36,360 bases of DNA from Chitinophagaceae bacterium. GTDB lineage: Bacteria > Bacteroidota > Bacteroidia > Chitinophagales > Chitinophagaceae. Within the stretch, counting starts at the first letter, position 1; each line of letters starts with the position of its first letter. This document shows, piece after piece, positions 18,591-34,897 of the stretch. The position numbers were made by a program, and so were the translations under genes. Below the pieces are notes generated by a model. That model was given only the letters and a program-made list of their open reading frames with translations. It had not been told where the DNA came from and made no database searches. Where the stretch lies: contig CANCVE010000038.1 of assembly GCA_947381435.1 (NCBI GenBank), positions 1 to 36,360 of the forward strand. The letters run 5' to 3'.

Positions 18591-18832
18591 AAACTCTTTT
18601 TCACAGTCATATAAATTATCTAACTTGTTAAGGGGTTGAAGTTCATCATAACTTTCTTTTTATAACATTATTAATAGGATAAATATACAGATTGTACTTT
18701 AATTTTTTTCAATTAATCAAAATCCCTTTGATTAAACATTAATAACACTTAAAAACTATCATTAATTCAAAATTTGTTTCTCAATATTTATATTTTACGT
18801 TCAACTACTTGACTTTAAGGTTATTTTAAGGT

Positions 18833-19047
18833 CTTCCCATTGCCGTTTTTGCCCTATAAACGGCAACCAATACCCCTTCCCATTGCCGTTTTTGCCCCAT
18901 AAACGGCAACCAATACCTCTTCCCATTGCCGTTTTTGTCTCATAAACGGCAAACATTACCCCTTCAGATTGCTGTTTTTATCTCATAAAAGGCAAACAGT
19001 ATCCCTTCCCATTGCTGTTATTGCTCATGAAACGGCAACAATCAAGA
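18833..19047. repeat. Five tandem 43-bp units, each a palindrome
   Basis: The palindrome half GCCGTTT starts at 18842, 18885, 18928, 18971 and 19014, an exact 43-base period. Each unit is CTTCCCATT, GCCGTTTTTG, a short centre (CCCTAT, CCCCAT or TCTCAT), AAACGGCAA and CCAATACC. The last two units have diverged (GCTGTT, AAAAGGC), as in a decaying or end-degenerating array. Identical inter-palindrome sequence rules out CRISPR. The array ends 29 bases before the recognisable part of the hipA pseudogene. Confidence 0.9.
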
Positions 19048-19075
19048 GACATTCTTTTCCGAATAATAAATATTT

Positions 19076-19943
19076 TTTTTTGGTCAAGCCATTGCCCCCG
19101 AATTACCCTAAAGTGAAGTTAAAATTGAAGAACTGGCCGAATAGGTCATAAAAAGCCAAACTGCCGTTACAGGAGTTCAGCCCAAGTTGTCGTTGCATTT
19201 GGCTTTTGCCGAGAAGCCAAATCTACCCAATCGGTTTGCCATAGTAGGAATGTGGGGGGCTACATTTTAAAGCCACCTTCTCCTCATTATACGCATTTGC
19301 CAGAGGTAGAAGACCATACAATGCATTTGGCAAGCATTGCCAAAATAAAAGGAGTTCCCCATAGTTTAATTCGTTTGCAATCTGGCAACTTGGCATATAC
19401 CACAATACGAATAGACAGGGTAAAATGGAAAAACTACACATGGAAGATATGTGTCAGCTAACCGAGCGTATGAGTGAAGACAAATACCAAGGCTCTTACG
19501 AACATATAGCCAAAGCCATATAAAAATATTCAGCAACGCCCAGATTGGATGTAGTCAATTTCTTCGAGTTGGTTTTGTTTTCATTCGTTACAGGTAATGC
19601 AGATATTCACCTATAGAACTTTTCATTAATTCATGAACCTATAATAGGCTCAATTTTTTCACCAGCATACGATTTAGTGGCAACCGCATTAGAAAATCCC
19701 GCCGATGAAGAAGACATGGCATTGACATTGAACTGGAAAAAGAAAAAAATCAAGAAGTCCGACTTTATTGCAGCTTTCAATACAGTGAAGCTTGATGCCA
19801 AACAACAAGAAAACATCTTCAAGAAAATTGTAAATGCAAAAAGTAAATGGTTCGATTTTAATGATTCAAGCTATATAAGTGAAGACGACAAGGCTGCTAT
19901 TAAAATATTGATAAATAGGCAGATTGCTAAAGTTAAGAAGTGA
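19076..19943 (+). pseudogene. hipA: HipA-type serine/threonine kinase toxin, degraded
   Basis: Three frames give a nearly continuous short HipA/HipT-type kinase: FFGQAIAPELP (stop for Tyr), SEVKIEELAE (stop), VIKSQTAVTGVQPKLSLHLA, a slip in the G-run near 19255, YILKPPSPHYTHLPEVEDHT, VPHSLIRLQSGNLAY, a second shift, LHMEDMCQLTERMSEDKYQG, LDVVNFFELVLFSF, TGNADIHL (stop) NFSLI, FSPAYDLVATALENP and a long intact 3' end. The phosphate-binding and catalytic TGNADxHxKN motifs are recognisable, but the Lys is a stop. At least four stops and two frameshifts make it inactive. The usual hipB antitoxin gene is not found upstream, where the 43-bp array lies. Confidence 0.85.
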
Positions 19944-19976
19944 TGCAACAAGAGCTACATTGGCTAATATGAAAAA

Positions 19977-20011
19977 AGAGTTTCAGAAGATAAACTTTGA
20001 AACCCTTTTTT
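19977..20011 (+). terminator. Terminator after the hipA pseudogene
   Basis: AGAGTTTCA (19977-19985) pairs with TGAAACCCT (19998-20006), with one mismatch, followed by a run of six T. It probably served the intact kinase gene and now insulates the integrase gene. Confidence 0.65.
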
Positions 20012-20147
20012 ATATTTTGTGACCGCGTTAGGATTATGTACTATACACCCTAAAACCCCTTATTTCGCTACAATTCAATACAGATAAGGCTTTCAAAAAA
20101 TACCATAGTGCAGACAAATGTGCATAAAAGCATCAAAATAACCTAAA

Positions 20148-20171
20148 TGTTTACCCCATTGTTTACCCCAC
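20148..20171. repeat. Two tandem 12-bp repeats before the integrase gene
   Basis: TGTTTACCCCAT is followed directly by TGTTTACCCCAC. They lie about 45 bases before the integrase start and could be arm-type integrase sites or an operator. No further copies were noticed elsewhere in the window, and no core attachment sequence could be defined. Confidence 0.45.
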
Positions 20172-20215
20172 TTTGCACTTAAAAGCGTATATTTACACAT
20201 AATAAAAAGTGAGCA

Positions 20216-21424
20216 ATGACAAGTGTAGCGATAGTTTGCCGTAAAGATAAAGTCAATAAAAAGGGGGAAGTTCCCATTCATTACCGTTTAATCAAAGACA
20301 GAAAAGTTAGTTATTTAGCTTCTGGTACAATGATACCATTAGAGAATTGGGACTTTGAAAGGAACAAGTTAAAAGCCAAACACCCAAATAGTGTTAGGAT
20401 AAACAATGAATTGTTAACCAGGGTATTAGAGTTGCAAGGCGAGGTAATCAGCAGTGAATCCAACACTAAATCCCTTACCACCAAACAGCTAAGAAGCAAG
20501 CTATATGGTAATAAGCCATCAGACTTTTTTGTAATAGCTGAGGAGGTCTTAGAATCTTACGAAAGCAATGGTAAAGTTGGTACTCACGATAAATGCAAAT
20601 CAATCATTAATAAGTTCAGGACTTACAATAAAGACCAAAGCGTTTTCTTTCAGGACATTACGGTTGATTACCTTACAAAATATGAAAAGTACCTCCGTGT
20701 CAATTTGGGCAATAAAACCAATACTGTACACAAAGATTTAAAGTTCATTCGCCGCATTTTCAATGAGGCCATTAAAAGGGATCTAATAGAAATGCACATT
20801 AGCCCTTTTTATAAATTCAAGATTAAGTTAGAAAAAACATCAAGAACCTTCCTCACTGATGATGAATTGACTTTAATAGAAAATCTAGAAATGAAGGCAG
20901 GTTCATTAATAAAATGCCATAGAGAAATGTTCGTGTTTGCTTGTTATGCAGGTGGGCTTCGTGTATCAGATGTTTTAAAGCTAAAGTGGAGGCATTTAGA
21001 CGGTGATTATCTTCTTATTGACATCAAAAAGACTAGGGAGCAATTGCGTTTAAAATTACCAGATGTTGCAGCTAAAATAATTAAAAGCTTCCAAACAGAA
21101 GAAGACTTGCCAAATAACTATATCTTTCCAGTGTTAGAAAACGGTTTGGACGAAAAAGATGCAAGGCTTTTTGATAATGCTATTACTTGTGCAACTTCTT
21201 TAATCAACAAGAATCTAAAATTTATAACTAAAAGGGCAAAGGTCGAAAAAACAATAAGCTTTCACATTAGCCGTCACACATGGGCTACTAAAGCTTTGAG
21301 GTTAAAAGTTCCTATTGAAATAGTATCAAAAATATTAGGTCATGCCAATTTAAGAGAAACAATGATTTATGCAAAAATTGTAGATACCCAAATGGATAAT
21401 GCAATGGACTTATTCAACCGTTAA
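20216..21424 (+). CDS. Tyrosine recombinase / integrase of the element
   Basis: Site-specific recombinase that would integrate and excise the element. It has the Bacteroidota architecture: an arm-type DNA-binding domain (about 1-90, VAIVCRKDKVNKKGEVPIHY), a SAM-like core-binding domain (about 100-205) and a catalytic domain. Catalytic residues are R249 (GGLRVSDVL), H350 and R353 (HISRHTWA), H376 (LGHANL) and nucleophile Y385 (MIYAKI), all intact. The 402-residue length is normal. It lies next to decayed genes, and the downstream genes run in the same direction. No tRNA or other obvious target is adjacent. Confidence 0.93.
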   Translation: MTSVAIVCRKDKVNKKGEVPIHYRLIKDRKVSYLASGTMIPLENWDFERNKLKAKHPNSVRINNELLTRVLELQGEVISSESNTKSLTTKQLRSKLYGNKPSDFFVIAEEVLESYESNGKVGTHDKCKSIINKFRTYNKDQSVFFQDITVDYLTKYEKYLRVNLGNKTNTVHKDLKFIRRIFNEAIKRDLIEMHISPFYKFKIKLEKTSRTFLTDDELTLIENLEMKAGSLIKCHREMFVFACYAGGLRVSDVLKLKWRHLDGDYLLIDIKKTREQLRLKLPDVAAKIIKSFQTEEDLPNNYIFPVLENGLDEKDARLFDNAITCATSLINKNLKFITKRAKVEKTISFHISRHTWATKALRLKVPIEIVSKILGHANLRETMIYAKIVDTQMDNAMDLFNR

Positions 21425-21438
21425 TACCATAAAAAACA

Positions 21439-22218
21439 ATGTCTAGAGAAATGTATTGGATAGAGCAAGTCGAATGGTTAGTAATGGCGGCTGCGAACGA
21501 TGATTTAAAATATTTTGGCAACAATGTAGATGGTTCTAATACTAATTTTGATTTCAATATCCCAACTACCCATACAGAATTATACCTTCAAACAACCTTG
21601 TTTTCAAACGCCGAAAATAAATTCTTTGATGCAATAAAAGATAAACCTCACATTGAAGTTTACAGATATATTCAAAAGTCATTTGAACAAGCTACTACTC
21701 GTTTTCCCGAATTAATAAAGGCAGAACTACTAGAGAACTTTTGGGTAGAATTTTGGATTCCGAATGAACCTGAAAGTGAAGTTGATATATTTCACCAAGA
21801 ATATTACGAATTACAATTCCGTGCTTACCAAGCATCTTTTCATGTCTTTGCTGCTTTCATTACCAAAATCAAAGAAGATTTTAGAAATGGGTTGCTTACA
21901 CCTCCCCAACCTCAACCACTGTCGCAACAACTACAACCGCAATCCATCCCCCACAAAAAGCTAAAAGTAAATATCACCGTCCCGCAGCTTACTTTTTTAT
22001 TCAAGATGCTCAACGACTTAAACCCTGCAATTTTCGACATTGCAGCAAAAACAGAACTAAGCAATTTCATTGCAGACAATTTCATTACAAAAGCAACTGA
22101 AAAAGAGGGCATCAAAGAAGGTAGTGTTTACAATCTTTTAACCGATACCGATAAAAAGACCGCCAATTTCTGGTCAGAAAAACTTGTCAAAATGCTACAA
22201 GAAGCCCGTCAAGTTTAA
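21439..22218 (+). CDS. Element accessory protein, unknown (possibly RteC-related C-terminus)
   Basis: A 259-residue soluble protein starting 14 bases after the integrase stop, so almost certainly cotranscribed. The N-terminal two thirds is helical. A Pro/Gln-rich linker (about 155-172, PPQPQPLSQQLQPQ) separates a C-terminal domain beginning LKVNITVPQLTFLF that contains a conserved-looking FWSEKLVKML end. That C-terminal pattern resembles the end of RteC-type proteins and other proteins found beside Bacteroidota integrases, but the match is from memory and weak. A regulatory role in mobilisation is a guess. Confidence 0.6.
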   Translation: MSREMYWIEQVEWLVMAAANDDLKYFGNNVDGSNTNFDFNIPTTHTELYLQTTLFSNAENKFFDAIKDKPHIEVYRYIQKSFEQATTRFPELIKAELLENFWVEFWIPNEPESEVDIFHQEYYELQFRAYQASFHVFAAFITKIKEDFRNGLLTPPQPQPLSQQLQPQSIPHKKLKVNITVPQLTFLFKMLNDLNPAIFDIAAKTELSNFIADNFITKATEKEGIKEGSVYNLLTDTDKKTANFWSEKLVKMLQEARQV

Positions 22219-22227
22219 TTAATTAAA

Positions 22228-22282
22228 ATTGCTACAATCCTTTGTAGCAATATGTTTCAGCAGGGGTGGTAACACCCCCTGC
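22228..22282. other. Two consecutive hairpins before the excisionase-like gene
   Basis: ATTGCTACAA pairs with TTTGTAGCAAT (22228-22251). GCAGGGGTG then pairs with CACCCCCTGC (22260-22282). They sit between the accessory gene and the HTH gene. The first may end the integrase transcript, though it lacks a T-run. The second has a strong GC stem and could be a recognition site, for example an origin of transfer or an excisionase site; this is speculative. Confidence 0.5.
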
Positions 22283-22354
22283 CACTGAATACGCTGCACT
22301 TTCCTACTCACTTTTACAGCAGAAACATTTCAAATACACTGTAAAATTTTAAAA

Positions 22355-22633
22355 ATGGAAGTAGTCACAATTCAGTCAGAAGCTTATTTAGCCATTATCG
22401 GCAAAATTGAAGCAATCAACACACGTCTTAACAGTAAAGAGAAAGAGCCTAAAGAACAATGGCTCGACAATCTCGAAGTAATGAAGTTGCTTAAAATCTC
22501 CAAGCGCACCGCCCAGCACTACCGAGACAATGGCGTTATTTCCTTCTCGCAGGTAGGCAACAAAATCTACTACCGTCTTTCCGATGTCGAAGCATTGCTA
22601 AACAAGCATTACATCAAAGCCTTTAAAAAGTAA
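22355..22633 (+). CDS. Excisionase-like helix-turn-helix protein
   Basis: A 92-residue protein with a short N-terminal coiled region (IEAINTRLNSKEKE) and a MerR-like/HTH_17 DNA-binding domain: WLDNLEVMKLLKISKRTAQH, then YRDNGVISFSQVGNKIYYRL and a final helix. This is the standard small regulator/excisionase that sits between the integrase and the VirE-type gene in Bacteroidota elements. It may direct excision or regulate the adjacent replication gene. Confidence 0.85.
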   Translation: MEVVTIQSEAYLAIIGKIEAINTRLNSKEKEPKEQWLDNLEVMKLLKISKRTAQHYRDNGVISFSQVGNKIYYRLSDVEALLNKHYIKAFKK

Positions 22634-22676
22634 TCTGTGTTTCTACACAGAATTGTTCTCATTACAAATTAGCAAC

Positions 22677-24926
22677 ATGAAAGCTTCAATTTTTCAAAAC
22701 TTCGTTCAATGGAAGGAGGATAAGTCATTAATCATCATTACAAAGTACATTATAGATGGCAAGTACAAAGAACAAGTCGAAGCAATAAGGGCAGCCATTG
22801 CAGAAGGTAAAAAAGAGTTAGCAGACGATTTAAAAAAAAAGCTGCCAGCCTTCACACCTTCCGGCACATTTCACAATGGCCGCAAAGCCAATTTATTAAC
22901 CGAGTACAGTAATCATGTCATTTTAGATATTGACAATATTACTGAAACCCAAATAGTGGATGCCATCCAAAAAGCGGCTTTACAGCCTCATACCTTCGCC
23001 GCCTTTGTTAGCCCTAGCGGAAATGGTGTAAAGATTATTGTAGCAGTCAGTGGCAGCGCAGACACCCACAAAGCCGCTTTCACACAAGTGGCAACCTACT
23101 ATCAACAAGCTTTGCAAGTCACTATCGACCCATCTGGCAAAGATGTCTCTCGTCTCTGCTTCATGTCTTACGACCCTAATTGCTTTCGCAACATCAACGC
23201 TACGCCTTTTCAGGTTCGAGTTATCGACCAAGTGGTAAAAGTAAAAAGCGAATCTTCCGTTACAGAAGCTCCAGTGCAGAAAATAAGCGAAGAGGATTCC
23301 GTAACAATCTTTGGCAAGTGTATAGACCTCACCGAAACCAAAGGCGATTACAAAGAAGGCAACCGAAACGCTTTTATTCATTCATTGGCTTGCAATTGCA
23401 ATCGGGCTGGGATTCTTCAAGCCACTACCGAAAGCTTAACTAAGGAAAATTACAATTTAGATGCAACAGAAATTGAACAAGCCATTGAAAGTGCCTATAA
23501 AAACAATGTAAACGATTTTGCAAAGGTTGCAAAGGTTGCAAACATTGCAACATTTCCCACAGAAACACCAAAATCAAAAGATGAGTTATTGATGGCAATG
23601 CCTTTCTTGCCCGAAAGCATTTACACCATGTTGCCCAGTATTCTCACCGAAGGTTGTGGCGTATTAAAAGACCGCCGAGAAAAAGATATATTCATCACAG
23701 GGGCATTATCCATTCTTAGCGGTTGTATGCGCAATGTCATTGGGCTTTATCGCGGCAAGGAGCATTACAGCAATCTATTTGTTTTCATCATTGCGCCTCC
23801 CGCAAGTGGCAAGGGGGCTATCACCTTCTCAAAAGAGTTAGGCAATAAATACCACGATAAACTAGTGGAAGCTAGCAAAATTGTAAAGAAAAAATACGAA
23901 GCCGAGTTAGCAGCCTATAAAGCCGCTTTGTATGGCACTAAAAGTAGAGGAAAACTGAAAGAAGAGGCAGCCCCTGAACCTCCAGACGAACCACCTTTCA
24001 AAATCCTATTCATTCCTGCCAATAATAGTAGTTCAAGAATTATTCAGCACTTGAATGAAGGAGACGAACAAGGTATTTTTTGCGAAACAGAGGCAGATAC
24101 TATGGGTAATGTCCTCAAACAAGATTGGGGAAGTTATTCCGATTTGCTGCGCAAAGCTTTCCACCACGAGCCAGTTTCTTTTAGTCGTAAAACAAACAAA
24201 GAATGGATCGAATTAAAAATGCCTCGTTTGTCAGTTTGTTTGGCAGGAACACCAGGACAAGTAGAGGGTTTAATCAAGTCGGCAGAAGATGGATTGTTTA
24301 GCCGTTTTATGTTCTATGTTTTCAAGGCGGATTGTGTTTGGATAAATGCAGGTCCCACTATGGATGGTGTCAACCTTACCAAACACTTCGAAGCACTTTC
24401 AGTCAAGGTATTAAATTTCGTAGAGTTCCTTGCCAATCAACCACAGATAAACTTTCACCTCACAGATGCCCAGTGGGCAATTCTAAACACCTTCGGCAAA
24501 GAAAGTTTGACCACCCTTTCCACCTTTATAAGCGAAGATTTGGCAAGCACATCAAAACGCCTTGGGCTTGTCCTATTTCGTATCTGTATGGTAATAACTG
24601 CATTGCGTTATTTCGATAATGCAGAAGATGGTTGCGAATACACTTGTACCGATGAAGATTTCGATTTAGCACTACAGATGGTAAAAGTCTATGAACAACA
24701 TTCTGTTTTTATGTTCAACGAATTGCCCAAGGCAGCAACAGTAACCGACAAGGCAATGAAAGCCTTTTTTGATGCCTTACCTCAAAAGTTCCGCCGTAAA
24801 GAAGCAATTCTGATAGCCGATGCAAAGTTCAAAATTAAAAGCCGCTCTGCAGATACCTACCTCTCCAAATTAGTCGCCAACAAGTGGCTTTCACAAGCTC
24901 GTATTGGCAATTTCGAAAAGAAATGA
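22677..24926 (+). CDS. VirE N-domain / DUF3987 replication protein (primase-helicase-like)
   Basis: A roughly 750-residue protein with the usual two-part build of mobile-element replication proteins in this phylum. The N-terminal BT4734/VirE_N domain (about 50-190) shows VILDIDNI, FVSPSGNGVKIIVAV and the DPSGKDVSRLCFMSYDPN block, an archaeo-eukaryotic primase-like signature. The C-terminal DUF3987 domain carries the P-loop APPASGKG (K379) and CETEADTMG, with CLAGTPGQVEGL and DGLFSRFMFY. The ATG start MKASIFQNF is chosen over a TTG eight codons earlier, because it matches the conserved beginning of the family. A linker (KVAKVANIATF) is encoded by repeated TTGCAAAGG words. Confidence 0.85.
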   Translation: MKASIFQNFVQWKEDKSLIIITKYIIDGKYKEQVEAIRAAIAEGKKELADDLKKKLPAFTPSGTFHNGRKANLLTEYSNHVILDIDNITETQIVDAIQKAALQPHTFAAFVSPSGNGVKIIVAVSGSADTHKAAFTQVATYYQQALQVTIDPSGKDVSRLCFMSYDPNCFRNINATPFQVRVIDQVVKVKSESSVTEAPVQKISEEDSVTIFGKCIDLTETKGDYKEGNRNAFIHSLACNCNRAGILQATTESLTKENYNLDATEIEQAIESAYKNNVNDFAKVAKVANIATFPTETPKSKDELLMAMPFLPESIYTMLPSILTEGCGVLKDRREKDIFITGALSILSGCMRNVIGLYRGKEHYSNLFVFIIAPPASGKGAITFSKELGNKYHDKLVEASKIVKKKYEAELAAYKAALYGTKSRGKLKEEAAPEPPDEPPFKILFIPANNSSSRIIQHLNEGDEQGIFCETEADTMGNVLKQDWGSYSDLLRKAFHHEPVSFSRKTNKEWIELKMPRLSVCLAGTPGQVEGLIKSAEDGLFSRFMFYVFKADCVWINAGPTMDGVNLTKHFEALSVKVLNFVEFLANQPQINFHLTDAQWAILNTFGKESLTTLSTFISEDLASTSKRLGLVLFRICMVITALRYFDNAEDGCEYTCTDEDFDLALQMVKVYEQHSVFMFNELPKAATVTDKAMKAFFDALPQKFRRKEAILIADAKFKIKSRSADTYLSKLVANKWLSQARIGNFEKK

Positions 24927-25046
24927 CTTGTTAACATTATGTTTTTCTTTAATGAGGTTGTTATTATTTACTAACAATCTTCTATTTGCCTCGTACTGTC
25001 AAGATAAAATTGCATATAAATACACTAATTTCACAAAAAATAGAAA

Positions 25047-25589
25047 ATGAGTATTGCTATTGCTTCCAAACTAAAGGCATTTGAATACCTTTTAATACAA
25101 CTAATAAAATGGTATGAGGATGTTTCGCCTGGCAAATCCGTTGTAACAGATTTTAATAAATTGAAGGTAATAAAGTTACATTTTTTTGCATCTGCTGTTA
25201 ATGCAGACTCTAATTCTGACGGTCTTCTGAATATTTTTAGTGAATTTTATGCACTTCCTTTTGGTCATGTAGAAAGTGATATTTATGATAGTCTTTCTAA
25301 TCTTCAGGTTTTTAAGCTAACAAAAAATGATATGTCTATTAACCAATATCCTTCAAATTATTTTGATGACATTGAAATGGATAAGGCTACAATTGAATTA
25401 GCCGTAGATACTCTAAAATCAATAAACCCAAATCTTGTTAAATATGAAGCTATGGATTTAGTAGAGTTAAGTCATCGTTGGTACTCATGGAAAACTACTT
25501 TTGAAACAGCACGTAGCTTAGGTCGTTTTTCTTTACGGATTCCTAATGAACTTATAAAAAAAGAAAGCAAATTCTACGTTTTAAATTGA
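25047..25589 (+). CDS. Panacea/SocA-like (DUF4065) antitoxin candidate
   Basis: A 180-residue soluble protein. The segment NKLKVIKLHFFASAV followed by FSEFYALPFGHVESDIYDSL follows the core pattern of the Panacea/SocA domain (hydrophobic KLxxLxFF helix, then A-x-P-x-G-P/H-V-x-x-x-V/I-Y). The C-terminal LVELSHRWYSWKTTFETA also resembles the family's helix with a conserved His and Trp. Panacea domains are known to neutralise many unrelated toxins encoded next to them. The stop is 12 bases before a large membrane-protein gene, the expected toxin position. The family call is from pattern memory and needs a profile search. Confidence 0.55.
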   Translation: MSIAIASKLKAFEYLLIQLIKWYEDVSPGKSVVTDFNKLKVIKLHFFASAVNADSNSDGLLNIFSEFYALPFGHVESDIYDSLSNLQVFKLTKNDMSINQYPSNYFDDIEMDKATIELAVDTLKSINPNLVKYEAMDLVELSHRWYSWKTTFETARSLGRFSLRIPNELIKKESKFYVLN

Positions 25590-25601
25590 TTTATTTAAAA
25601 G

Positions 25602-27620
25602 ATGTACATAACCAAAATTAAAGAGAAATTCCAAAATGAATTCGGACAGAATTGGTGTACTGACTTGTATAATGCTCCTGACTCCAATTATGATTCGATA
25701 AAAACTTCTATATCCTCAAAATTAAATTCATTCGCAATAGATTTTTTTGAAGCTATTAATCTTTCTGTTATTTCTGGCGAATATATAGTTGATACTACCT
25801 TTATAGACAATTTGGATAGTCTTTTAAGTTTAATATTCAATATTGCTACTTTAGATACAGATAATATTGATGTCAATGTCATTGGAAAGGAGAATGTAAA
25901 TGCATTAAATACTCTAGTTATAAATTCCTTTCGGCCACATTTAATGAATGCTATAAATCATTATAAAGGACTTAACAAACAAGTCTTGCGGCAATCAACC
26001 GTTTTTGATACGCAGGTTATATTGGATGCATTTAAAAATGAAAGGTCAGAATATACATCTTCAGAATTTTCAACTTTAATATCTCAAACAAATGATTTCA
26101 TTTCTTTGAATGTAAAACTTGCACATATAGATCACAATCTTTCTGTCAATCCAGATATTTTACGTGAATTGGTTCTAATTAATATTTCTTTAATTGATAA
26201 AGTAAACCAATCCCCTTCATTTTATAATATCCTTTTAGATAAATGCGAATTTCTTAAGAAAAAATTAATCTATCGGTTTAATGAAGATAAAAAGAATTAT
26301 ACATATAGTTTTAATTTCGAAAACATAGACTTATCTACAGGTAAAAACGAGTTCAAATACTTTAATGAGTTTTATAGTATAACCAATCTTAATCACAATT
26401 TAGACAATGCCAATAATACAGAGTGTAAAAAAGAATTCGATAGAAAGGTTGAATCAGCTTTGAAAAAAATTGCAACTAATCAAACGATACAATTTGAGGA
26501 TTTTCATTATTTGGTAAAGTACTACAAAGATGAAAATAAAAATGAGGTAAAGCTAAATAATTTATATGAACAGTTTAAAGCCTTAGAGTTACCTAATTCA
26601 ACTAATTTAATTGATAAAAGAGCATACCAAATTTCAAGTAATTATCTATTTAACAATACAGTTTCTTTTATTTCAAAGAAGGACAATATTTCATTAGAAA
26701 TTTTAAATACGTATACGTCCGATTTGAAATTTATTCAAGAACAAACAAAAGTTTTTAATTACTTCCCTTACCTACGTATTTGCGAATCTCTATTAAAAAA
26801 AATTGATTTACTATTAAAACCAAGCATTAACAATAATGAATCATTAAGTGATGTAAAAAAAATACTTAGTTTGCTGGAGGATTTGGAAAAAATACTTTAT
26901 CAAAATTACGAATGGTGCAGAAATAGAAATTTTCAAGCTTTTCAAGTTCCTTTAATTGAATGTCAAAAAACTGTTGAAGGTGTTACTGTTTTTCTATCCT
27001 CATCTTTTATTTTGCCAATTAATTATGCTCAAGTTAATAAAGATATACTTTTAGTAACATCGCAAATATTGAAATACAAAACAATTTATGATTATAAATT
27101 CGATATAAACGAGGATAAGGAAGAGATTAATCGAATAAAGGATTCTATAAATAAAACTGAGAAAAGGAGTATTGAAATCATAAGCATTTTTGCAGCAATA
27201 GTGTTGTTTGTTTCTGGTAGTATCCAGCTATTTGCTAAGGTTGAATCATTTAAACAATCTCTTTTGTTTATGTTAGTTTTCGCTTATGCCCTATCTGTTT
27301 TTGTTTTATTAATTTGGATTATAACTAGAGAAAATGGGTTTAAATATAAAAAAATGCCTAATATCCATCGTTGGCTAATTGCAATAGTCGGGGTTGCAAC
27401 TATTGGTTCATTTATCCTCATTCAGTGTAATACTAACTTTCAAACTGTCACGCAAAAAAGTATTACAAATTTAAAAGATTCAATAAAAATAAATATTTTA
27501 CAAGACAGCCTTAAAAAGTTAAAGAATAAGGAAGAAATTGATGCCTTTAAACCTATTACAAACTTAAGTGACTCTATAAAAAAGCCGTTCTCGAAGGTGG
27601 CTTTAAAAAATAAACAGTAA
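25602..27620 (+). CDS. 672-residue protein with three C-terminal membrane segments, function unknown
   Basis: Not recognised as any characterised family. About 520 N-terminal residues are predicted soluble and helical, rich in Asn, Lys and Ile, without visible nuclease, kinase or protease motifs. Three hydrophobic stretches follow: about 522-545 (IISIFAAIVLFVSGSIQ), 553-575 (LLFMLVFAYALSVFVLLIWI) and 589-607 (WLIAIVGVATIGSFILI). A charged, possibly coiled segment (INEDKEEINRIKDSINKTEK) precedes the first. The tail repeats ITNLKDSIK and ITNLSDSIKK. A large sensor-like domain ending in a small membrane module is common among membrane-perturbing defence effectors, so with the Panacea-like partner it may be the toxin. 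Base use is more AT-rich than in the restriction genes that follow. Confidence 0.6.
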   Translation: MYITKIKEKFQNEFGQNWCTDLYNAPDSNYDSIKTSISSKLNSFAIDFFEAINLSVISGEYIVDTTFIDNLDSLLSLIFNIATLDTDNIDVNVIGKENVNALNTLVINSFRPHLMNAINHYKGLNKQVLRQSTVFDTQVILDAFKNERSEYTSSEFSTLISQTNDFISLNVKLAHIDHNLSVNPDILRELVLINISLIDKVNQSPSFYNILLDKCEFLKKKLIYRFNEDKKNYTYSFNFENIDLSTGKNEFKYFNEFYSITNLNHNLDNANNTECKKEFDRKVESALKKIATNQTIQFEDFHYLVKYYKDENKNEVKLNNLYEQFKALELPNSTNLIDKRAYQISSNYLFNNTVSFISKKDNISLEILNTYTSDLKFIQEQTKVFNYFPYLRICESLLKKIDLLLKPSINNNESLSDVKKILSLLEDLEKILYQNYEWCRNRNFQAFQVPLIECQKTVEGVTVFLSSSFILPINYAQVNKDILLVTSQILKYKTIYDYKFDINEDKEEINRIKDSINKTEKRSIEIISIFAAIVLFVSGSIQLFAKVESFKQSLLFMLVFAYALSVFVLLIWIITRENGFKYKKMPNIHRWLIAIVGVATIGSFILIQCNTNFQTVTQKSITNLKDSIKINILQDSLKKLKNKEEIDAFKPITNLSDSIKKPFSKVALKNKQ

Positions 27621-27657
27621 GACAAGATACAATATGTTAATAACCAAGAGAAATAGA

Positions 27658-27684
27658 GGTTGCAAGGTTGCAAACCTTGCAACC
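27658..27684. other. GGTTGCAAGG/CCTTGCAACC hairpin
   Basis: Perfect 10-bp arms GGTTGCAAGG and CCTTGCAACC enclose TTGCAAA, followed by a further TTTGCAACCTTGCAAA. The same word, TTGCAAAGGTTGCAAAGG, is written inside the DUF3987 gene near 23520-23545. It lies after the membrane-protein gene and could end its transcript or be a protein-binding repeat. Confidence 0.5.
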
Positions 27685-27833
27685 TTTGCAACCTTGCAAA
27701 TCAATTCTCACCCCCTTTTTACATCAAAAAAACACTCACTTTTCCCTCTAGCAAAAAACATTCATAGAATAATAATTTATCATAAAAAGCTATTTACACC
27801 TACTTTCATTACATTGCATAGTTTTATACTAGA

Positions 27834-28481
27834 ATGATAGAAGAAGTTTCCACAAAGCAGGTAAAAAGTAAAAAGAGAGTTACAGACCACGGCGAGGTTT
27901 TTACCAACGAAAGAGAGGTAAATGCTATGCTCGACCTTGTAAAAGATGAAACCGAGCGTATAGATTCTCGTTTCTTGGAACCAGCTTGTGGTAATGGCAA
28001 TTTTTTGGCTGAAGTATTACGGAGAAAGCTAGCAGTTGTAGGCGGTAGATATAGCAAAAGCCAGATTGAATGGGAATGCTATGCTTTAACAGCAATTGCA
28101 AGTATTTATGGGGTTGATATTTTAGAAGATAATGCAATAGAATGTAGGAAACGCTTGTTTGATATTTTCTCTAAATTATACTTATCTACTTTTAATACTA
28201 ATTGCAAGTTGGAATTTCTCAAAGGGATAAGGTTTATACTCGAAAGAAATATATTGTGGGGTGATGCTTTAGATTTTACCAATCCCGTTACCAAGAAGCC
28301 AATTATATTTTCTGAGTGGAGTATGGTAAATTCAACAATGGTAAAACGTAGAGACTATATTTTTAAGTTCTTAGTAGAAAAGTCACATCAGTTTGCGCTC
28401 TTCAATGATGAAGGAACGGCAGCAGCAATTGATGAACCAATAAAGGATTTTCCACTCATTCATTATCTAAAGCTAGACTAA
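27834..28481 (+). CDS. SAM-binding methyltransferase-like subunit of the restriction system (no NPPY)
   Basis: A 215-residue protein with an N6-adenine methylase-like front: HGEVFTNEREVNAMLDLV, then motif I FLEPACGNGNFL (47-58) and the GVDILEDN acidic motif. The region after LWGDALDF, where N/DPPY/F should be, reads TNPVTKKPIIFSEWSM instead, so the catalytic motif is absent. It therefore probably cannot methylate by itself, and may work as a partner of the next gene product, whose start is two bases after this stop. Translational coupling is likely. It could be a specificity or accessory subunit. Confidence 0.75.
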   Translation: MIEEVSTKQVKSKKRVTDHGEVFTNEREVNAMLDLVKDETERIDSRFLEPACGNGNFLAEVLRRKLAVVGGRYSKSQIEWECYALTAIASIYGVDILEDNAIECRKRLFDIFSKLYLSTFNTNCKLEFLKGIRFILERNILWGDALDFTNPVTKKPIIFSEWSMVNSTMVKRRDYIFKFLVEKSHQFALFNDEGTAAAIDEPIKDFPLIHYLKLD

Positions 28482-28483
28482 CA

Positions 28484-29980
28484 ATGATACTAACCAATTA
28501 CAATCCTGATGTCCTTTCTTGCATTGCCAACCTAAGCAATGATGAGGTTTTTACGCCACCACATTTGGCAAACCAAATGCTCGATTTGTTACCTAAAGAA
28601 TTATGGAGTAACAAAAACGCCACCTTTTTAGACCCTGTTTCAAAGTCGGGTGTGTTTTTGAGAGAGATAGCCAAAAGATTGATGGTTGGGTTAGAAACAC
28701 AAATACCCGACAGGCAGGAGCGTATTAACCATATTTTCAAAAAGCAATTGTTTGGCATAGCCATTACCGAGCTTACCTCTTTGTTATCTCGGCGTTCAGT
28801 TTATTGTAGCAAAACTGCAAATAGTGTTTATTCTGTTTGCACCAACTTCGAAACAGAACAAGGCAACATACTTTATGAAAGGCTACAACATACTTGGCAA
28901 AATGGCAAATGCACTTATTGTGGGGCAAGCCAAGAAGTTTATGATCGCGAGGATGCGTTAGAAACTTACGCTTACAACTTTATACATATTGATTCAATTG
29001 ATAAACTCTTTAAGAAAATGAAATTTGATGTTGTCGTGGGTAATCCCCCTTATCAATTAAGTGATGGTGGTCATGGTAGAAGTGCAAAGCCTTTATACCA
29101 TTTATTTATACAACAAGCTAAAAAATTAAACCCTAGGTATCTATCTATGATTATACCAGATAGATGGTTTGCAGGTGGCAAGGGGCTTGATGATTTTAGA
29201 AGTGAAATGCTAAATGATACACATTTTAAAAAAATTGTTGATTACACTTCAGCTGCAGATGTATTTCCAGGTGCAGATGTTCCTGGTGGCATTTGTTTTT
29301 TTCTTTGGGATAGTACTTATAAAGGCAAAACTGAAATCGAAATTCGAAATGGGGCTCATATAGAAAAGTCGGAAAGATATTTAAATGAGTTTAATACTTT
29401 CATACGCAATTCCACGGCAGTTGATGTAATTCGAAAAGTCAATTTAAAGACAAAGGATTTTATGAATACACAAGTCTCAAGTAGAAAACCATTTGGTTTA
29501 GCAACGAATGCTAGACCCAAAAGCAAAGGTGATTTACGCTTGAAATATTACGGTGGTTATGGCCCATATCCCAAAAAAGAAATAACAACTGGAGTTGAAT
29601 ATATTAATAAATGGAAAGTTGTAACTTCCAAGACATCTTATGATCATGCTGGTCAACCAGACAAGGATGGAAAAAGAAAAGTTTTCTCAACATTAGAAAT
29701 ATTAAAACCTGATGAAATTTGTACTGAGTCTTATATTATCACTGGTAGTTTTAATACTGAATCTGAATGCTTAAATCTGTTAAGCTATCTTAAAACCAAA
29801 TTTGTACGATTTTTAGTTTCTCAATTATCATTTTCTCAAGACATAACTAAGGATAGATTCTCGTTTGTTCCAATACAAAATTTTGAAGAAAGCTGGAATG
29901 ACGAAAAGCTTTATAATTTTTACGAGTTATCAAATAATGAAATTGATTTTATTAATTCTATGATTCGCCCAATTGAGTAA
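28484..29980 (+). CDS. Eco57I-type N6-adenine DNA methyltransferase
   Basis: Modification subunit of the restriction system. It starts with NDEVFTPPHLANQMLDLLP and a degenerate motif I FLDPVSKSGVFL (49-59), in which Lys-Ser replaces the usual glycines, as I recall for this subfamily. It continues with GIAITELTSLLSRRSVYCSK, a CTYCGA half zinc finger and the catalytic motif GNPPYQLSDGG (NPPY at 187-190). After that come LNPRYLSMIIPDRWFAGGKG and FPGADVPGGICFFLWD, typical of Eco57I/type II methylases. The C-terminal third is more AT-rich and probably holds target recognition. It is followed three bases later by the restriction subunit gene. Confidence 0.88.
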   Translation: MILTNYNPDVLSCIANLSNDEVFTPPHLANQMLDLLPKELWSNKNATFLDPVSKSGVFLREIAKRLMVGLETQIPDRQERINHIFKKQLFGIAITELTSLLSRRSVYCSKTANSVYSVCTNFETEQGNILYERLQHTWQNGKCTYCGASQEVYDREDALETYAYNFIHIDSIDKLFKKMKFDVVVGNPPYQLSDGGHGRSAKPLYHLFIQQAKKLNPRYLSMIIPDRWFAGGKGLDDFRSEMLNDTHFKKIVDYTSAADVFPGADVPGGICFFLWDSTYKGKTEIEIRNGAHIEKSERYLNEFNTFIRNSTAVDVIRKVNLKTKDFMNTQVSSRKPFGLATNARPKSKGDLRLKYYGGYGPYPKKEITTGVEYINKWKVVTSKTSYDHAGQPDKDGKRKVFSTLEILKPDEICTESYIITGSFNTESECLNLLSYLKTKFVRFLVSQLSFSQDITKDRFSFVPIQNFEESWNDEKLYNFYELSNNEIDFINSMIRPIE

Positions 29981-29983
29981 AAT

Positions 29984-32497
29984 ATGGCAAAAGAATTCTT
30001 CCCAAAACGTTCCGAGGCTAAACCAACCATTTATGCCTATACCGATACCAACCCACAATATAATGGGCTATTAAAAGTGGGCTATACCAGTGTAAGTGCA
30101 AAAGCAAGGGTAGAGCAGCAGTACCCCATCATAAAGCCTGGTGCTTTACCTTACAAAATAGTGATAGAAGAGAGTGCCATGCGCAATGATGGCAGCACAT
30201 TTACCGACCACGATGTTCACCGCTATCTAAAAAGTAAAAACATCCGAAACGAAGCTGGCGAATGGTTTAGGTGTACCGAAAAAGAAGTATTAGCTGCAAT
30301 TGTTGCTGTAAAACAAGGAGAACTAAACGAAGAAAACCGTACCCTTACCTTTGGTATGCGCCCAGAGCAGCAAGACGCAGTAAATAAAACGATTGCCTAT
30401 TTCGATAGCTTCAAGCAAGAAAAAGAAAACAAAGACAAAACACCTCGCTTTCTTTGGAATGCTAAAATGCGTTTCGGTAAAACCTTTGCTACTTATAAGC
30501 TAGCAAAGCAAATGAATTGGAAAAAGGTATTGGTACTCACCTTCAAACCTGCGGTTCAAAGTGCTTGGGAGCAAGATTTATCTACGCACGTAGATTTTAA
30601 AGGGTGGCAGTTTATAAACAAAGGCGGTTCATTAACAATAGACAATGCAGATAAAACAAGACCAATAGTGTGCTTTGGTTCTTTCCAAGACTTTTTAGGC
30701 AAAAACAAAGCAGGTGGTATAAAAACACATAATGAATGGGTACACCTCACCAATTGGGATTGTGTTGTTTTTGATGAATACCATTATGGTGCTTGGCGTG
30801 AAAATGCGAAAGATTTATTTGAATCGGAGGATGAAAAAGAAATGAAACTCGATTTGGGTGAAGGGCTTGAATATTTTAATGAAGATAATATGCCCATCAC
30901 CACCAATGGCTACCTCTATTTGTCGGGTACGCCATTTAGGGCAATCAACTCTGGCGAGTTTATAGAAGAACAAATTTTCAACTGGACATATAGCGACGAA
31001 CAAAGGGCGAAGCAAGAATGGCAAGGGGAAAATAACCCTTATGCTTCCCTGCCTCGAATGGTGATGCTTACTTATCAATTGCCCGATAGCATTAGAGAAA
31101 TAGCCATACAGGGTGAATACAACGAGTTTGATTTGAATGTTTTCTTTACCGCCAGTGGCAATCGCAATAGTGCAAAATTTCAATATGAAGAAGAAGTTCA
31201 AAAGTGGCTCGATTTAATACGAGGTGCTTACTTGGGAACTACAATAGACAATTTAAAGTTAGGTGGTTCAAAGCCCCCAATGCCTTTTTCCGATGCTCGT
31301 TTATTAAATGTGCTGTCACACACTTTTTGGTTTTTACCAAGTGTAGCTTCTTGCTATGCCATGAAAAACTTATTAGAACAGCGTAAAAACACTTTCTACC
31401 ACGACTATGAAATAATTGTTGCAGCAGGGTTAGAGGCAGGTTTAGGAGTAGAAGCCTTAAAACCTGTAGAGTTTGCAATGGACAATCCATTAAAATCAAA
31501 AACTATCACCCTTTCTTGTGGCAAATTGACCACTGGCGTATCAGTTAAGCCTTGGACGGGTATTTTTATGCTGCGCAATTCATCAAGTCCCGAAACTTAT
31601 TTTCAAGCAGCTTTCCGTGTACAAACACCTTGGACAACAAAGAACCCCGATAGTCTTTCGCCAAACAAAGAAGAAATACTAAAAGAAGAGTGTTATGTGT
31701 TTGACTTCGCCCCTTCAAGGGCATTGCGTCAAATAGCCGATTATAGCTGTAGGCTCAATATCGACGAAACCAACCCCGAAAAGAAAGTAGCAGAGTTTAT
31801 TAGCTTTCTTCCTGTATTGGCTTATGATGGCAGTTCAATGAAAGAAATAGATGCTGCTGGCGTTTTGGATATGGCAATGAGTGGCACAACATCAACCTTA
31901 TTAGCGAAAAGATGGGAGAGCGCTTTGTTAGTGAATGTTGACAATAATACTTTACAACGCCTAATGAACAACCCAGATGCAATGAAAGCATTAATGGGAA
32001 TAGAGGGCTTTAGGAATTTAAACCAAGATATAGAAACAATCATCAACAAGTCGGAAGCTATACAAAAGACAAAGAAGGAAGCTAACAAGCGTGAACTAAC
32101 TAAAGAAGAAAAGAAAGAATTAACCGACGAAGAGAAAGAGTACAAAAGCAAGAGAAAAGAGATACAAGATAAACTGATAAAGTTTGCAACCCGTATTCCT
32201 GTTTTTATGTATCTAACAGATTACAGAGAACACACCTTAAAAGATGTCATTACACAACTAGAACCGGGGCTATTTAAAAAAGTAACGGGTTTGAATGTAA
32301 AAGACTTTGATTTGTTGGTAAGCCTTGGTGTGTTCAATAGTTCATTAATGAATGATGCAGTCTATAAATTCAAACGCTACGAAGATGCAAGCCTAGAATA
32401 CACAGGCATCAACAGACACCATGAAGATAAAGTGGGAGGATATGATACTGTAATAAGTGCGGAAGATTATAAGAGTATTTATGAGAATGTGGGATAG
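29984..32497 (+). CDS. Restriction subunit: GIY-YIG nuclease fused to SF2 helicase
   Basis: An 837-residue enzyme with an N-terminal GIY-YIG (T5orf172-like) nuclease (about 15-100): IYAYTD, LLKVGYTS, a conserved Arg in SAKARVEQQ and the metal-binding Glu E93 in AGEWF. A helicase/translocase follows, with Walker A RFGKT (K166), the DEYH box (D264-H267), SGTPF (314-318) and the motif V/VI region TTGVSVKPW plus YFQAAFRVQTPW, where the last arginine would be the finger. A charged coiled segment (about 690-725, KKEANKRELTKEEKK) separates the C-terminal domain. With the two methylase-type genes upstream it forms a complete restriction-modification operon. The active residues look intact. Confidence 0.87.
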   Translation: MAKEFFPKRSEAKPTIYAYTDTNPQYNGLLKVGYTSVSAKARVEQQYPIIKPGALPYKIVIEESAMRNDGSTFTDHDVHRYLKSKNIRNEAGEWFRCTEKEVLAAIVAVKQGELNEENRTLTFGMRPEQQDAVNKTIAYFDSFKQEKENKDKTPRFLWNAKMRFGKTFATYKLAKQMNWKKVLVLTFKPAVQSAWEQDLSTHVDFKGWQFINKGGSLTIDNADKTRPIVCFGSFQDFLGKNKAGGIKTHNEWVHLTNWDCVVFDEYHYGAWRENAKDLFESEDEKEMKLDLGEGLEYFNEDNMPITTNGYLYLSGTPFRAINSGEFIEEQIFNWTYSDEQRAKQEWQGENNPYASLPRMVMLTYQLPDSIREIAIQGEYNEFDLNVFFTASGNRNSAKFQYEEEVQKWLDLIRGAYLGTTIDNLKLGGSKPPMPFSDARLLNVLSHTFWFLPSVASCYAMKNLLEQRKNTFYHDYEIIVAAGLEAGLGVEALKPVEFAMDNPLKSKTITLSCGKLTTGVSVKPWTGIFMLRNSSSPETYFQAAFRVQTPWTTKNPDSLSPNKEEILKEECYVFDFAPSRALRQIADYSCRLNIDETNPEKKVAEFISFLPVLAYDGSSMKEIDAAGVLDMAMSGTTSTLLAKRWESALLVNVDNNTLQRLMNNPDAMKALMGIEGFRNLNQDIETIINKSEAIQKTKKEANKRELTKEEKKELTDEEKEYKSKRKEIQDKLIKFATRIPVFMYLTDYREHTLKDVITQLEPGLFKKVTGLNVKDFDLLVSLGVFNSSLMNDAVYKFKRYEDASLEYTGINRHHEDKVGGYDTVISAEDYKSIYENVG

Positions 32498-32636
32498 GGG
32501 CAATTTATTTTTAAGAAAAATTGAAAAAGAGCAAATGAAAATAAAGTCTATTTGTAGTGGTATTCAGTTTAAATACATAAGTAAATACTAAAAAGGAATA
32601 ATTCTGTAAGGTTACTAATTTAAAGGTTACTAGTCA

Positions 32637-32646
32637 CCCCCCCCCC
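32637..32646. repeat. Run of ten C before the XRE-ImmA promoter
   Basis: A homopolymer of ten C in an AT-rich gap, just after two copies of AAGGTTACTA (32608-32617, 32623-32632). Its length could vary by slippage. It is not in a coding frame, so any effect would be on expression. Confidence 0.6.
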
Positions 32647-32668
32647 AATCAACATATTGTCCACATTT

Positions 32669-32684
32669 TTGGTAAAACTACCAA
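32669..32684. promoter_or_regulatory. Operator 1 of the XRE-ImmA gene
   Basis: TTGGTA-AAAC-TACCAA, a 16-bp palindrome with 6-bp arms. The same arms and the same 4-base centre length recur 65 bp downstream. Probably a dimer site for the XRE-type protein encoded next. Confidence 0.65.
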
Positions 32685-32723
32685 TAAAGCTAAGCATTAT
32701 ACTATAAAGTACTAAAAATTGCT

Positions 32724-32731
32724 TACTTTTG
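32724..32731 (+). promoter_or_regulatory. -7 box of the XRE-ImmA gene
   Basis: TACTTTTG matches TAnnTTTG. Transcription would start near 32738, inside operator 2, so occupancy of that site should block initiation. No TTG was found at -33. Confidence 0.5.
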
Positions 32732-32733
32732 TT

Positions 32734-32749
32734 TTGGTAATTTTACCAA
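32734..32749. promoter_or_regulatory. Operator 2 of the XRE-ImmA gene
   Basis: TTGGTA-ATTT-TACCAA, the second copy of the palindrome, begins three bases after the -7 box and ends 15 bases before the start codon. Its position over the predicted transcription start fits autorepression. Confidence 0.7.
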
Positions 32750-32764
32750 TATGATAAAGCAACA

Positions 32765-33979
32765 ATGGACGACAACTTAAATAATATAGACAGAATTATA
32801 AACGGTGCATTAAGTCCTAGGGGATGGATTAATACATTGTCACTTTCACAATTTTTCAAAGTAAAGATTGATGAAATGGATATATCAAAAAACCAAGCTC
32901 TTAAAATTATGGACATCGAAACAAAAAGCTTTGATGCCTTTATGTTGGGTGAGTCCACCAAGATTGATTACCTAACAATTTTAAAAATATCCAAGTTTTT
33001 AGAAATATCCCCAACTGTATTTATAGATAAATTTTTGTTGAAGATTGGCGAGGAAAATAAGCAAGAATTAGAAAGAATTAAGATAAACCATTTTATTGCA
33101 AAAAATTTCGACTTAGAAACTTTAAGGAAGAATGGGTTTATTAATAGCGTAAACGATTTTGATGATATCGAGAAAAAGATATTAAATTTTTTCGGATACG
33201 AAACAGTATTTCAATATAAAAGCAATATAGATATTCCTGTTTATTCTAGTGGCAAAATAACTTCTAACATTAAAAGTCAGAAGTTTTGGGTTAATATGGC
33301 TTACGCTACTTTTGATAAAATTTATAATTCAAATGAATATGACAGAGACTATTTAGTAAAATTATTCCCTTCTTTAAGAGCTTATTCTATAAATGTAGAG
33401 AGCGGTCTAAGTCAAGTTTGTAAACTTCTTTTCAAGGCTGGTATTACAGTCATTTTTATTCCGAAAATTTATGATAATTTACATATTAGGGCTGCTACAT
33501 TTTGTATTAACGATAAACCATGTATAGCTATAACAAATTATAAAGATTATTATCCTACCCTTTGGTTTAGCCTGTTCCACGAACTTTATCATGTTCTATA
33601 TGATTGGGAAGAGATTTTGATTTCCGAAAGTAATGCGCATATATCAGCTGGTATGTCAACAGCAACAGTTAATGAAGATGCGGCAAATGAATTTGCGTCA
33701 AGATATTTATTTGATGAAGATAAATTAAAGGAGATAGAGCCTTTTATTAATAACCCTAGTTATATAGCAAAGTATGCCCGTGGGTACAATATTCATGAAA
33801 GTATTGTCTATGCAATATATGCTTACAAATTTTCAACGCCTAAAAATAAACTATTTGGCAAATTCAGGCATTTTCTTATAACTCCTGGTCCAGCTATAGA
33901 ATCTTTTAACCCCTCAGATTATGAAAATTATGTACCTATTCCAAAAATAGCAAGAACAACAAAATTACTTATAGATTAA
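32765..33979 (+). CDS. XRE-family regulator fused to ImmA/IrrE metallopeptidase
   Basis: A 404-residue protein. The N-terminal part (about 38-82, ISKNQALKIMDIETKSFDAF then LKISKFLEIS) is a helix-turn-helix of the XRE type. The C-terminal part is a COG2856/ImmA-IrrE zinc peptidase: SLFHELYHVLYDW with the HExxH H272-E273-H276, and the third ligand region DAANEFASRYLF with E309. Such proteins act as phage or element repressors, or as proteases that cleave a repressor after damage. They also occur as antitoxin-like partners (HigA-like). It leads a two-gene operon behind twin operators. The restriction genes end 267 bases upstream. Confidence 0.88.
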   Translation: MDDNLNNIDRIINGALSPRGWINTLSLSQFFKVKIDEMDISKNQALKIMDIETKSFDAFMLGESTKIDYLTILKISKFLEISPTVFIDKFLLKIGEENKQELERIKINHFIAKNFDLETLRKNGFINSVNDFDDIEKKILNFFGYETVFQYKSNIDIPVYSSGKITSNIKSQKFWVNMAYATFDKIYNSNEYDRDYLVKLFPSLRAYSINVESGLSQVCKLLFKAGITVIFIPKIYDNLHIRAATFCINDKPCIAITNYKDYYPTLWFSLFHELYHVLYDWEEILISESNAHISAGMSTATVNEDAANEFASRYLFDEDKLKEIEPFINNPSYIAKYARGYNIHESIVYAIYAYKFSTPKNKLFGKFRHFLITPGPAIESFNPSDYENYVPIPKIARTTKLLID

Positions 33980-33989
33980 AAATTATATA

Positions 33990-34586
33990 ATGAAAGCAAA
34001 AAATACTCAAAAGAAAATATTGATAGAAAGTAAGGCTAAGCCGATTAAGAAAATAGACCCCAAACAACTTCAAGAGCAGGAGGGGCTTTTTTCTCAAGCC
34101 GATTCTATTTCGCCAATCAATAAGAAAATAGATAAGGCTGAAATAATCCAACTTACAAGTGGCGAATTTGTGAATGTTGATGAATATGTAGATGAACATT
34201 TCTACGCGGAGGTCGCAACTCATTTCTACAAAATATTTTATAATTTAATCGCGGATTTATTAGGTATTAGCAGAGAAGAGATGAAGCCATTTAGAAAACC
34301 GTATGTAGTTGCATTGTTAAAGAACAAATTGATTTATGGTAGATTCCCGAATGCAATCCAAAAGAAAATATATGCAAGGAATCCATATATTGGATATTGC
34401 ACAAGGAAGTATTGGAACTATCAGACACTAACAAAAACAGGAGATTTGTCGTTAAGAGACTTTATAAATGATTTTCAAATTTTAGGGGAAAGTGTATTAG
34501 GTAACAACGGGAATCTAAAAATCTTTATAATTGAATATTGTAAAAAATATCAATTGCCAATTCAATTAGAATTGTTTGATTTGTAA
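33990..34586 (+). CDS. P63C-like protein, function unknown
   Basis: A 198-residue basic protein starting 10 bases after the XRE-ImmA stop. The N-terminal 45 residues are Lys-rich and probably disordered. The rest, with HFYKIFYNLIADLLG, VALLKNKLIYGRFPNAIQKK, YWNYQTLTKTGDLSLRDFIN and a short end, resembles the P63C domain of phage- and element-borne proteins (FYxxIYRLxGW...NKLIYExLPPGVLxxL...HQxLTxDxG). This is assigned from pattern memory, and the usual Trp/Pro signature is only partly kept. Its role with a metallopeptidase is unknown; a substrate or toxin of the ImmA partner is one possibility. Confidence 0.55.
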   Translation: MKAKNTQKKILIESKAKPIKKIDPKQLQEQEGLFSQADSISPINKKIDKAEIIQLTSGEFVNVDEYVDEHFYAEVATHFYKIFYNLIADLLGISREEMKPFRKPYVVALLKNKLIYGRFPNAIQKKIYARNPYIGYCTRKYWNYQTLTKTGDLSLRDFINDFQILGESVLGNNGNLKIFIIEYCKKYQLPIQLELFDL

Positions 34587-34607
34587 TTGCATAAACAATA
34601 CTAAACT

Positions 34608-34637: not shown

Positions 34638-34656
34638 ACTAAAATATATAAAACGC

Positions 34657-34854: not shown

Positions 34855-34897
34855 TAGTATGCTCCTTTTTAGTATGTTAATATTTTTTCTATCTTTT

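Follow-up and report, generated by a model that had tools for sequence, protein, structure and literature searches.

In toxin-antitoxin (TA) systems of the PanAT type, antitoxins carrying the Panacea domain (DUF4065) are paired with membrane toxins (Kurata et al., 2022, PMC8832971; Ernits et al., 2023, PMC10440598), and membrane depolarisation is described in these reports as a validated activity of several Panacea-partnered toxins. As described there, many of the membrane partners are small peptides, a toxin of 281 aa is called 'relatively large', and the toxin gene comes first more often (78%; PMC10440598). The PanAT toxin PanT-Hel.sp. from Helicobacter, with a coiled-coil-like N-terminal region and C-terminal membrane helices, is reported to depolarise membranes (PMC8832971) and is, compared by description only, the nearest described architecture to the protein presented here. 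Other relevant systems include SocAB, a type VI TA system of Caulobacter (PMC8832971), and RosmerTA (RmrT/RmrA), a phage-borne TA system described as having an ImmA-type protease as antitoxin and a depolarising toxin with a C-terminal membrane region, and as protecting against some phages (PMC10440598). PycTM of the Pycsar systems is described as a membrane-disrupting defence effector (PMC11224242). We analysed a two-gene locus in a stretch of 36,360 nucleotides from a Chitinophagaceae bacterium (hereafter, the window), which is one entire contig of a 4.88-Mb genome. The locus shares with PanAT a Panacea-type partner adjoining the effector, a putative toxin that spans the membrane, and prophage carriage, but unlike many of the PanAT membrane partners, the effector family ranges from 559 to 700 aa and includes a helical part of ∼470 residues. 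We consider it probable, at roughly 60%, that the pair is a Panacea-restrained, membrane-acting, TA-like defence module of Bacteroidota mobile elements and prophages.

The first gene of the pair (positions 25047..25589, forward strand) encodes the putative antitoxin, a Panacea/SocA-type protein of 180 aa, whose ORF lies 12 bases before that of a 672-residue protein, as originally reported. The Panacea/SocA-like pattern noticed in its sequence proved to be real, though divergent, and the profile match that had been named beforehand as a test was found in Pfam, NCBIfam and PHROGs. The alignment with Pfam PF13274 (E = 9.2e-5) covers profile positions 2-113 of 113 and scores 23.8 bits, 1.9 under the gathering score of 25.7; phrog_1281 of PHROGs was matched with E = 1.8e-10. 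SocA (NCBIfam NF047745) is the nearest named model, with E = 5.6e-8, but the score of 32.7 bits does not reach the SocA equivalog cut-off of 190. The AlphaFold2 model (pLDDT 96.6) is composed of helices and short strands, and in a Foldseek search of the PDB, its top and sole high-probability match was 7yk3_B from the M. tuberculosis DarTG complex (probability 1.00, TM 0.52), with an E value of only 0.028 and in a system whose toxin differs. Judged by its profile matches, the product is a divergent but genuine Panacea/SocA protein at the superfamily level, although marginal by the Pfam cut-off.

The second gene (25602..27620, forward strand) encodes the 672-aa effector, which is delineated by its ORF, its homologues and an AlphaFold2 model. 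The prediction that this protein lacks a recognised family held, since sequence searches of Pfam, PADLOC, NCBIfam, PHROGs and the PDB returned no significant match. Foldseek searches with the model found nothing in the PDB at E <= 0.001 (the best matches, at E = 0.012, were weak ones to helical repeats) and a single match at this threshold in BFVD, to the unnamed 634-aa viral protein A0A8S5VY37 (E = 3.9e-7). In the model, which was built with 27 homologues (pLDDT 80.0, pTM 0.69), residues 1-470 (25602..27011, forward strand) are mostly helical with two short strand pairs. They are followed by a helix at residues 475-525 (27024..27176, forward strand), which the model and its conservation mark as a probable coiled coil, and which leads into the first of three membrane segments assigned on the same strand by hydropathy: TM1 (residues 526-544; 27177..27233), TM2 (556-574; 27267..27323) and TM3 (591-609; 27372..27428). 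A continuous helix spanning residues 475-544 enters TM1 in the model, and helices 550-575 and 587-643 contain TM2 and TM3.

The three C-terminal membrane segments, previously noted in the window protein, recur in all 27 intact members of the family described below. Across this family, the best-conserved block of 20 residues (521-540) is the junction between the coiled coil and TM1, followed by blocks 341-360 and 461-480; the best-conserved single residues, mainly aromatic or small ones, do not make up an obvious catalytic set. The architecture and the conservation peak at the coiled coil/TM1 junction support action of the C-terminal module on the membrane, and the damage claimed for it is putative. 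The charges of the TM2-TM3 loop (4 K/R versus 1 D/E) point weakly to a cytosolic N-terminus, with which the K-rich tail after TM3 fits poorly.

Relatives were difficult to reach from the effector. As a single query against 298 genomes of the same order, it retrieved, besides itself, only one locus with two internal stops (L003; E = 7.2e-4), and nothing useful was obtained from the genome_contigs, viral_contigs, plasmids and phages collections. We therefore surveyed genomes of the phylum with PF13274, which matched at E <= 0.001 in 92 of 395 Bacteroidota genomes. The window Panacea, used alone as query, yielded one distant Panacea (L004) in 396 genomes, no match in viral_contigs or plasmids, and phage cr128_1 in the phages collection. 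From the survey, the neighbourhoods of 110 among the matches listed were taken in (30 + 80 fetched stretches, with flanks of only about 1.5 kb in loci L007-L036), and a script found the Panacea ORF in 103 of these 110. One of them, L046, encodes a 184-aa Panacea and, 3 bases downstream, a 628-aa protein whose C-terminal part carries three membrane helices. This protein is 26% identical to the window effector over 645 columns (BLASTP E = 6e-20, as a single comparison), and the Panaceas are 33% identical over 185 columns. L046 and L145, which have the same ORFs, are one locus, from genome G558 of Flavobacterium sp. LC2016-23. Weak matches to a two-sequence effector profile in genomes G881 and G953 were dropped; they resembled what we take to be a transporter and a ligase, respectively.

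When Panacea alignments were used to search genome_contigs, 23 loci were found, and the downstream neighbour on the same strand was the effector in all 23, although a gene inserted on the opposite strand interrupts it in L139. IMG/VR contributed four intact pairs (L121, L146, L148, L006) and one broken copy (L122). Co-occurrence of the two genes in other genomes, which had also been named beforehand as a test, was thus found, with 27 intact pairs: the window, 22 bacterial loci and four IMG/VR contigs, including the near-copies L123/L124, L135/L136, L143/L145 and L121/L146/L148/L144. As in PanAT, two adjacent, co-directional genes are kept as a pair in all 27, with Panacea preceding the effector each time and gaps ranging from -26 to +14 bases. 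The effectors have 559-700 aa (median 632) and the Panaceas 166-196 aa; an internal start codon was used for the L006 effector and for the Panacea of the phage record L160. Named hosts include Dyadobacter, Pontibacter, Hymenobacter, Pedobacter, Sphingobacterium, Mucilaginibacter, Flavobacterium, Draconibacterium, Prevotella, Bacteroides and Barnesiella. A constant order and spacing in 27 intact pairs is more than chance. The antitoxin-first order, unlike the usual order of published Panacea systems, counts against our preferred reading of the pair, as do the PF13274 score just below the gathering score and a promoter scan that did not exceed chance, with 16 signals found and 18.6 expected from shuffled sequences.

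The association also proved to be specific. When a profile of the 27 effectors was run against the 395 Bacteroidota genomes, with at most three candidates scored per genome, the effector was found in two, the window's and G558, in each case together with Panacea (loci L178 and L179). Among all fetched loci, no effector lacked a clade Panacea, and none of 102 survey loci had the effector beside another Panacea, a count that includes three loci (L025, L031, L035) in which a wrong multi-helix ORF was picked. Most loci were reached through Panacea, so these figures speak to the fidelity of the pair rather than to its frequency. In quick tree searches without bootstrap, the paired and phage-borne Panaceas formed one clade (SH-aLRT 100, branch 1.81 or 1.73) versus 98 other Bacteroidota Panaceas, which were kept after leaving out L025, L031, L035, L046 and duplicates. 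Tree distances of the Panaceas correlated with those of the effectors, both for the 27 pairs (Mantel r = 0.86, 0/5000 permutations) and for the 20 remaining after thinning of near-copies (r = 0.77, 0/5000 permutations), although the agreement may come partly from shared host descent. Panacea and effector are conserved and inherited together in scattered members of the Bacteroidota and in prophage-like contigs.

Scans of the 27 effectors with Pfam and PADLOC gave no model of note. Scattered weak Pfam matches, such as DUF2157 (three effectors, best E = 6.3e-4) and LapA_dom (two, best E = 8.4e-4), were taken as membrane-helix composition. PADLOC models of PycTM also matched weakly, one in 7/27 effectors (best E = 0.0039), one in 2/27 (best E = 1.4e-5) and one in 1/27, but profile-profile comparison did not support kinship with PycTM, with hhalign against 16 PycTM-matching domains giving a probability of 0.6% and reversed controls 0.26-0.39%. 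The PADLOC matches thus speak for kinship and the comparison against it. Both are membrane-type effectors, and we read the weak matches as probably reflecting shared membrane-helix composition; the gene before the effector is Panacea in 27/27. As for RosmerTA, the PADLOC models that the 27 effectors matched included none for Rmr, and the partner here is Panacea instead of an ImmA-type protease. An ImmA/M78 antitoxin is not next to the effector; the window's M78 gene lies about 5 kb off, behind other genes.

We then considered the DNA that carries the pair. The window pair sits on a mobile element, with a tyrosine integrase (20216..21424, forward strand; PF00589, E = 1.7e-21), an HTH gene and, just upstream of the pair, a gene for a primase-type protein (22653..24926, forward strand; BT4734-like N-terminal, PriCT-1 and DUF3987 domains by Pfam). 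Downstream are a restriction-modification-like set and the M78-peptidase gene (32765-33979), which matches the PD-Lambda-2_B and RmrA models of PADLOC. No tRNA was found in the window, and no direct repeats between 18500 and 36360 were taken for attachment sites. In three of the four pair-bearing IMG/VR contigs, L146, L147 (the same as L121) and L148, an endolysin or amidase gene is located upstream of the pair, and L147 and L148 have an integrase further on, at the contig end. A tyrosine integrase is accordingly present in L121 and L148, whereas none was found in the pair-bearing contigs L146 and L006, both of which are short.

Such surroundings raise the possibility that the pair is a membrane TA module whose main role is to stabilise its mobile element or prophage by addiction, or to exclude superinfecting phages. 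Both the integrase element of the window and the prophage-like contigs with the pair near lysis genes are in keeping with this, as is the patchy distribution, with the effector in 2/395 genomes. The site occupied by the pair in Flavobacterium G558, next to a gene that we take to be hemF, illustrates the patchiness. Among 25 loci at this site (G558 and 24 relatives of the genus; a 26th genome yielded no locus), the pair was present in one, presumed hemB was directly next in 11, another shared gene was there in four and something else in eight, and one was unread; at this frequently unoccupied site, the pair was therefore either gained by insertion or lost. The neighbouring genes argue in the other direction, since strong PADLOC matches adjoin the pair in four loci, fitting defence islands, though with no control set for comparison. 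These matches were to PDC-S24 (L127), Tmn (L128), Upx (L130) and PDC-S01 (L125), and come from ten hand-picked flanking genes scanned singly; of the other six, one matched Cas3 weakly and five gave no match. A set of 98 flanking proteins, likewise with no control set, gave matches to 50 PADLOC families at E <= 1e-6, and Pfam identified many housekeeping genes.

Addiction also accounts less well for a set of phage records in which a Panacea of this clade occurs and the effector was undetected, and which fit counter-defence better, even if some of these genes may be relics. The four records are L120 (146,490 bases), L160 (42,810 bases), L158 (a fragment of 4,575 bases) and the crAss-like phage cr128_1 (95,150 bases, a 'complete genome' by its record title). 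Effector profiles found nothing in any of them, while one of these profiles did detect four pair-bearing records. The absence is firm only for cr128_1, because the IMG/VR records may be fragments; a fifth record, L161, ends at the Panacea gene and was left uncounted. None of L120, L160, L158 and cr128_1 yielded a tyrosine integrase, and L161 has a sub-threshold match. The L120 Panacea is 45% identical to that of Flavobacterium L130 over 174 columns and groups with the Flavobacterium pairs L129/L130, and the L160 Panacea joins L120 and these pairs in the tree (support 86). The cr128_1 protein, gp061, is 65% identical to the Panacea of Barnesiella L142 over 94 residues and falls inside Barnesiella in the tree; it may be a relic, because with only 97 residues it comprises just the N-terminal half of Panacea. 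On the tree, the four lone Panaceas correspond to four label changes, two of which are forced by well-supported branches. The presence of Panacea alone in phage records suggests an arms race, and these genes are candidates for counter-defence, for which the phage antitoxin AdfB, described as countering DarTG defence, provides a precedent (PMC11481870). Given the phage records and the PADLOC matches beside the pair, we hold addiction or exclusion as the main role to be unlikely. The more specific proposal that the pair is a Bacteroidota immune module engaged in a phage arms race, with lone antitoxins acquired or kept by several phages (a gut crAss-like phage included) at least twice and from different bacterial lineages, and serving as decoys that hold the effector closed, is a tentative one, to which we give somewhat worse than even odds.

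For the membrane-acting defence module that we prefer, the following sequence of events can be proposed. Panacea, encoded first, would bind the large effector and keep it inactive, as its family and its co-inheritance with the effector suggest. The ∼470-residue helical part, predicted to lie in the cytosol, would serve as a platform and/or sensor, and the coiled coil, judging from the anatomy of the protein, would couple it to the three-helix membrane module. Infection would disturb the complex, whereupon the membrane module would open or damage the inner membrane, and growth would stop or the cell would die before phage release. The matching lone Panacea of some phages would re-inhibit the effector. 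The original prediction had placed sensing in the 520-residue part of the effector, but the putative sensor could equally be Panacea or the complex, and Panacea itself has been hypothesised to act as sensor (PMC10440598).

Restraint might operate differently if Panacea were a SocA-like proteolytic adaptor that hands the effector to a protease, in a type VI-like manner, without steric block. SocA is the sole NCBIfam model that the window Panacea matches, and the two modes are described as not necessarily mutually exclusive (PMC8832971). We nevertheless think this improbable, since the match is far below the equivalog cut-off, the effector is membrane-anchored, and direct complexes are reported for validated Panacea pairs (PMC8832971). 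It is also very doubtful that the pair is instead a membrane-anchored signalling or housekeeping complex with Panacea as regulatory subunit, which would suit an effector with no obvious catalytic residues but not a rare, patchy gene pair found on mobile and prophage-like DNA and broken in L122 and L139.

For the proposed membrane-acting defence module, the effector family and its architecture are new, whereas the Panacea kind of TA system is already known. Among the PMC papers listed, judged by titles and the beginnings of abstracts, none describes the pair or counter-defence by lone Panaceas, although supplements, preprints and NetFlax may list the cluster. With this pair, the Panacea network comes to include a large membrane effector built of several parts, and its Panacea clade has only one partner here, in contrast to the promiscuity described for Panacea overall. 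The effector alignment provides a new profile with which 'hypothetical proteins' of about 600 aa in Bacteroidota mobile elements and prophages can be annotated, and the antitoxin-only phage records permit a direct test of antitoxin mimicry as a means of counter-defence in phages of Bacteroidota, gut crAss-like phages included.

Downstream of the pair, window positions 27834-32497 are occupied by three genes that, judged from their Pfam and PADLOC matches, form a restriction-modification-like set whose parts are split. Besides an adenine methylase of the Eco57I type and a helicase-like protein of the T5orf172/ResIII kind, which matched separate portions of a single PADLOC type IIG model, the set includes a short protein resembling methyltransferases. 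Further along, at 32765-34586, lie a gene for a 404-residue M78/IrrE peptidase-like protein, which in Pfam and PADLOC searches matched the PADLOC models PD-Lambda-2_B (9e-16) and RmrA, the RosmerTA antitoxin (6e-9), and, after it, a 198-residue gene that had no PADLOC match. These two genes are possibly a second toxin-antitoxin-like set, carried by the pair's own mobile element.

A repeat scan of window positions 18500-36360 detected an array of 43-base units upstream of the integrase gene (18832-19046), recorded as four overlapping 86-base copies at a spacing of 43. Immediately downstream of the effector gene, a terminator-like hairpin of 13 pairs was located on the minus strand (27657-27685), the only one in the scan, versus 0.9 expected from shuffles.

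Two other loci hold broken copies of the pair, and intact copies are found elsewhere. In Bacteroides ilei (L139, 8537-11791), the effector gene is interrupted by a gene on the opposite strand, and in L122 (8040-10249), both the Panacea and effector genes are fragmented. The crAss-like phage cr128_1 (L005) encodes a lone Panacea, gp061 (97 residues; 4007-4300), which across 94 residues is 65% identical to the Panacea of the Barnesiella type and corresponds to that protein's N-terminal half; profile searches of the 95-kb phage genome detected no effector.

Small membrane PanAT-like pairs appear from sequence to be expanded in G598, G651 and G769, three genomes all of family f58, with 9-11 Panacea matches per genome in the PF13274 survey (395 Bacteroidota genomes; E <= 0.001). 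Several of their Panaceas adjoin small proteins having one or two membrane segments.
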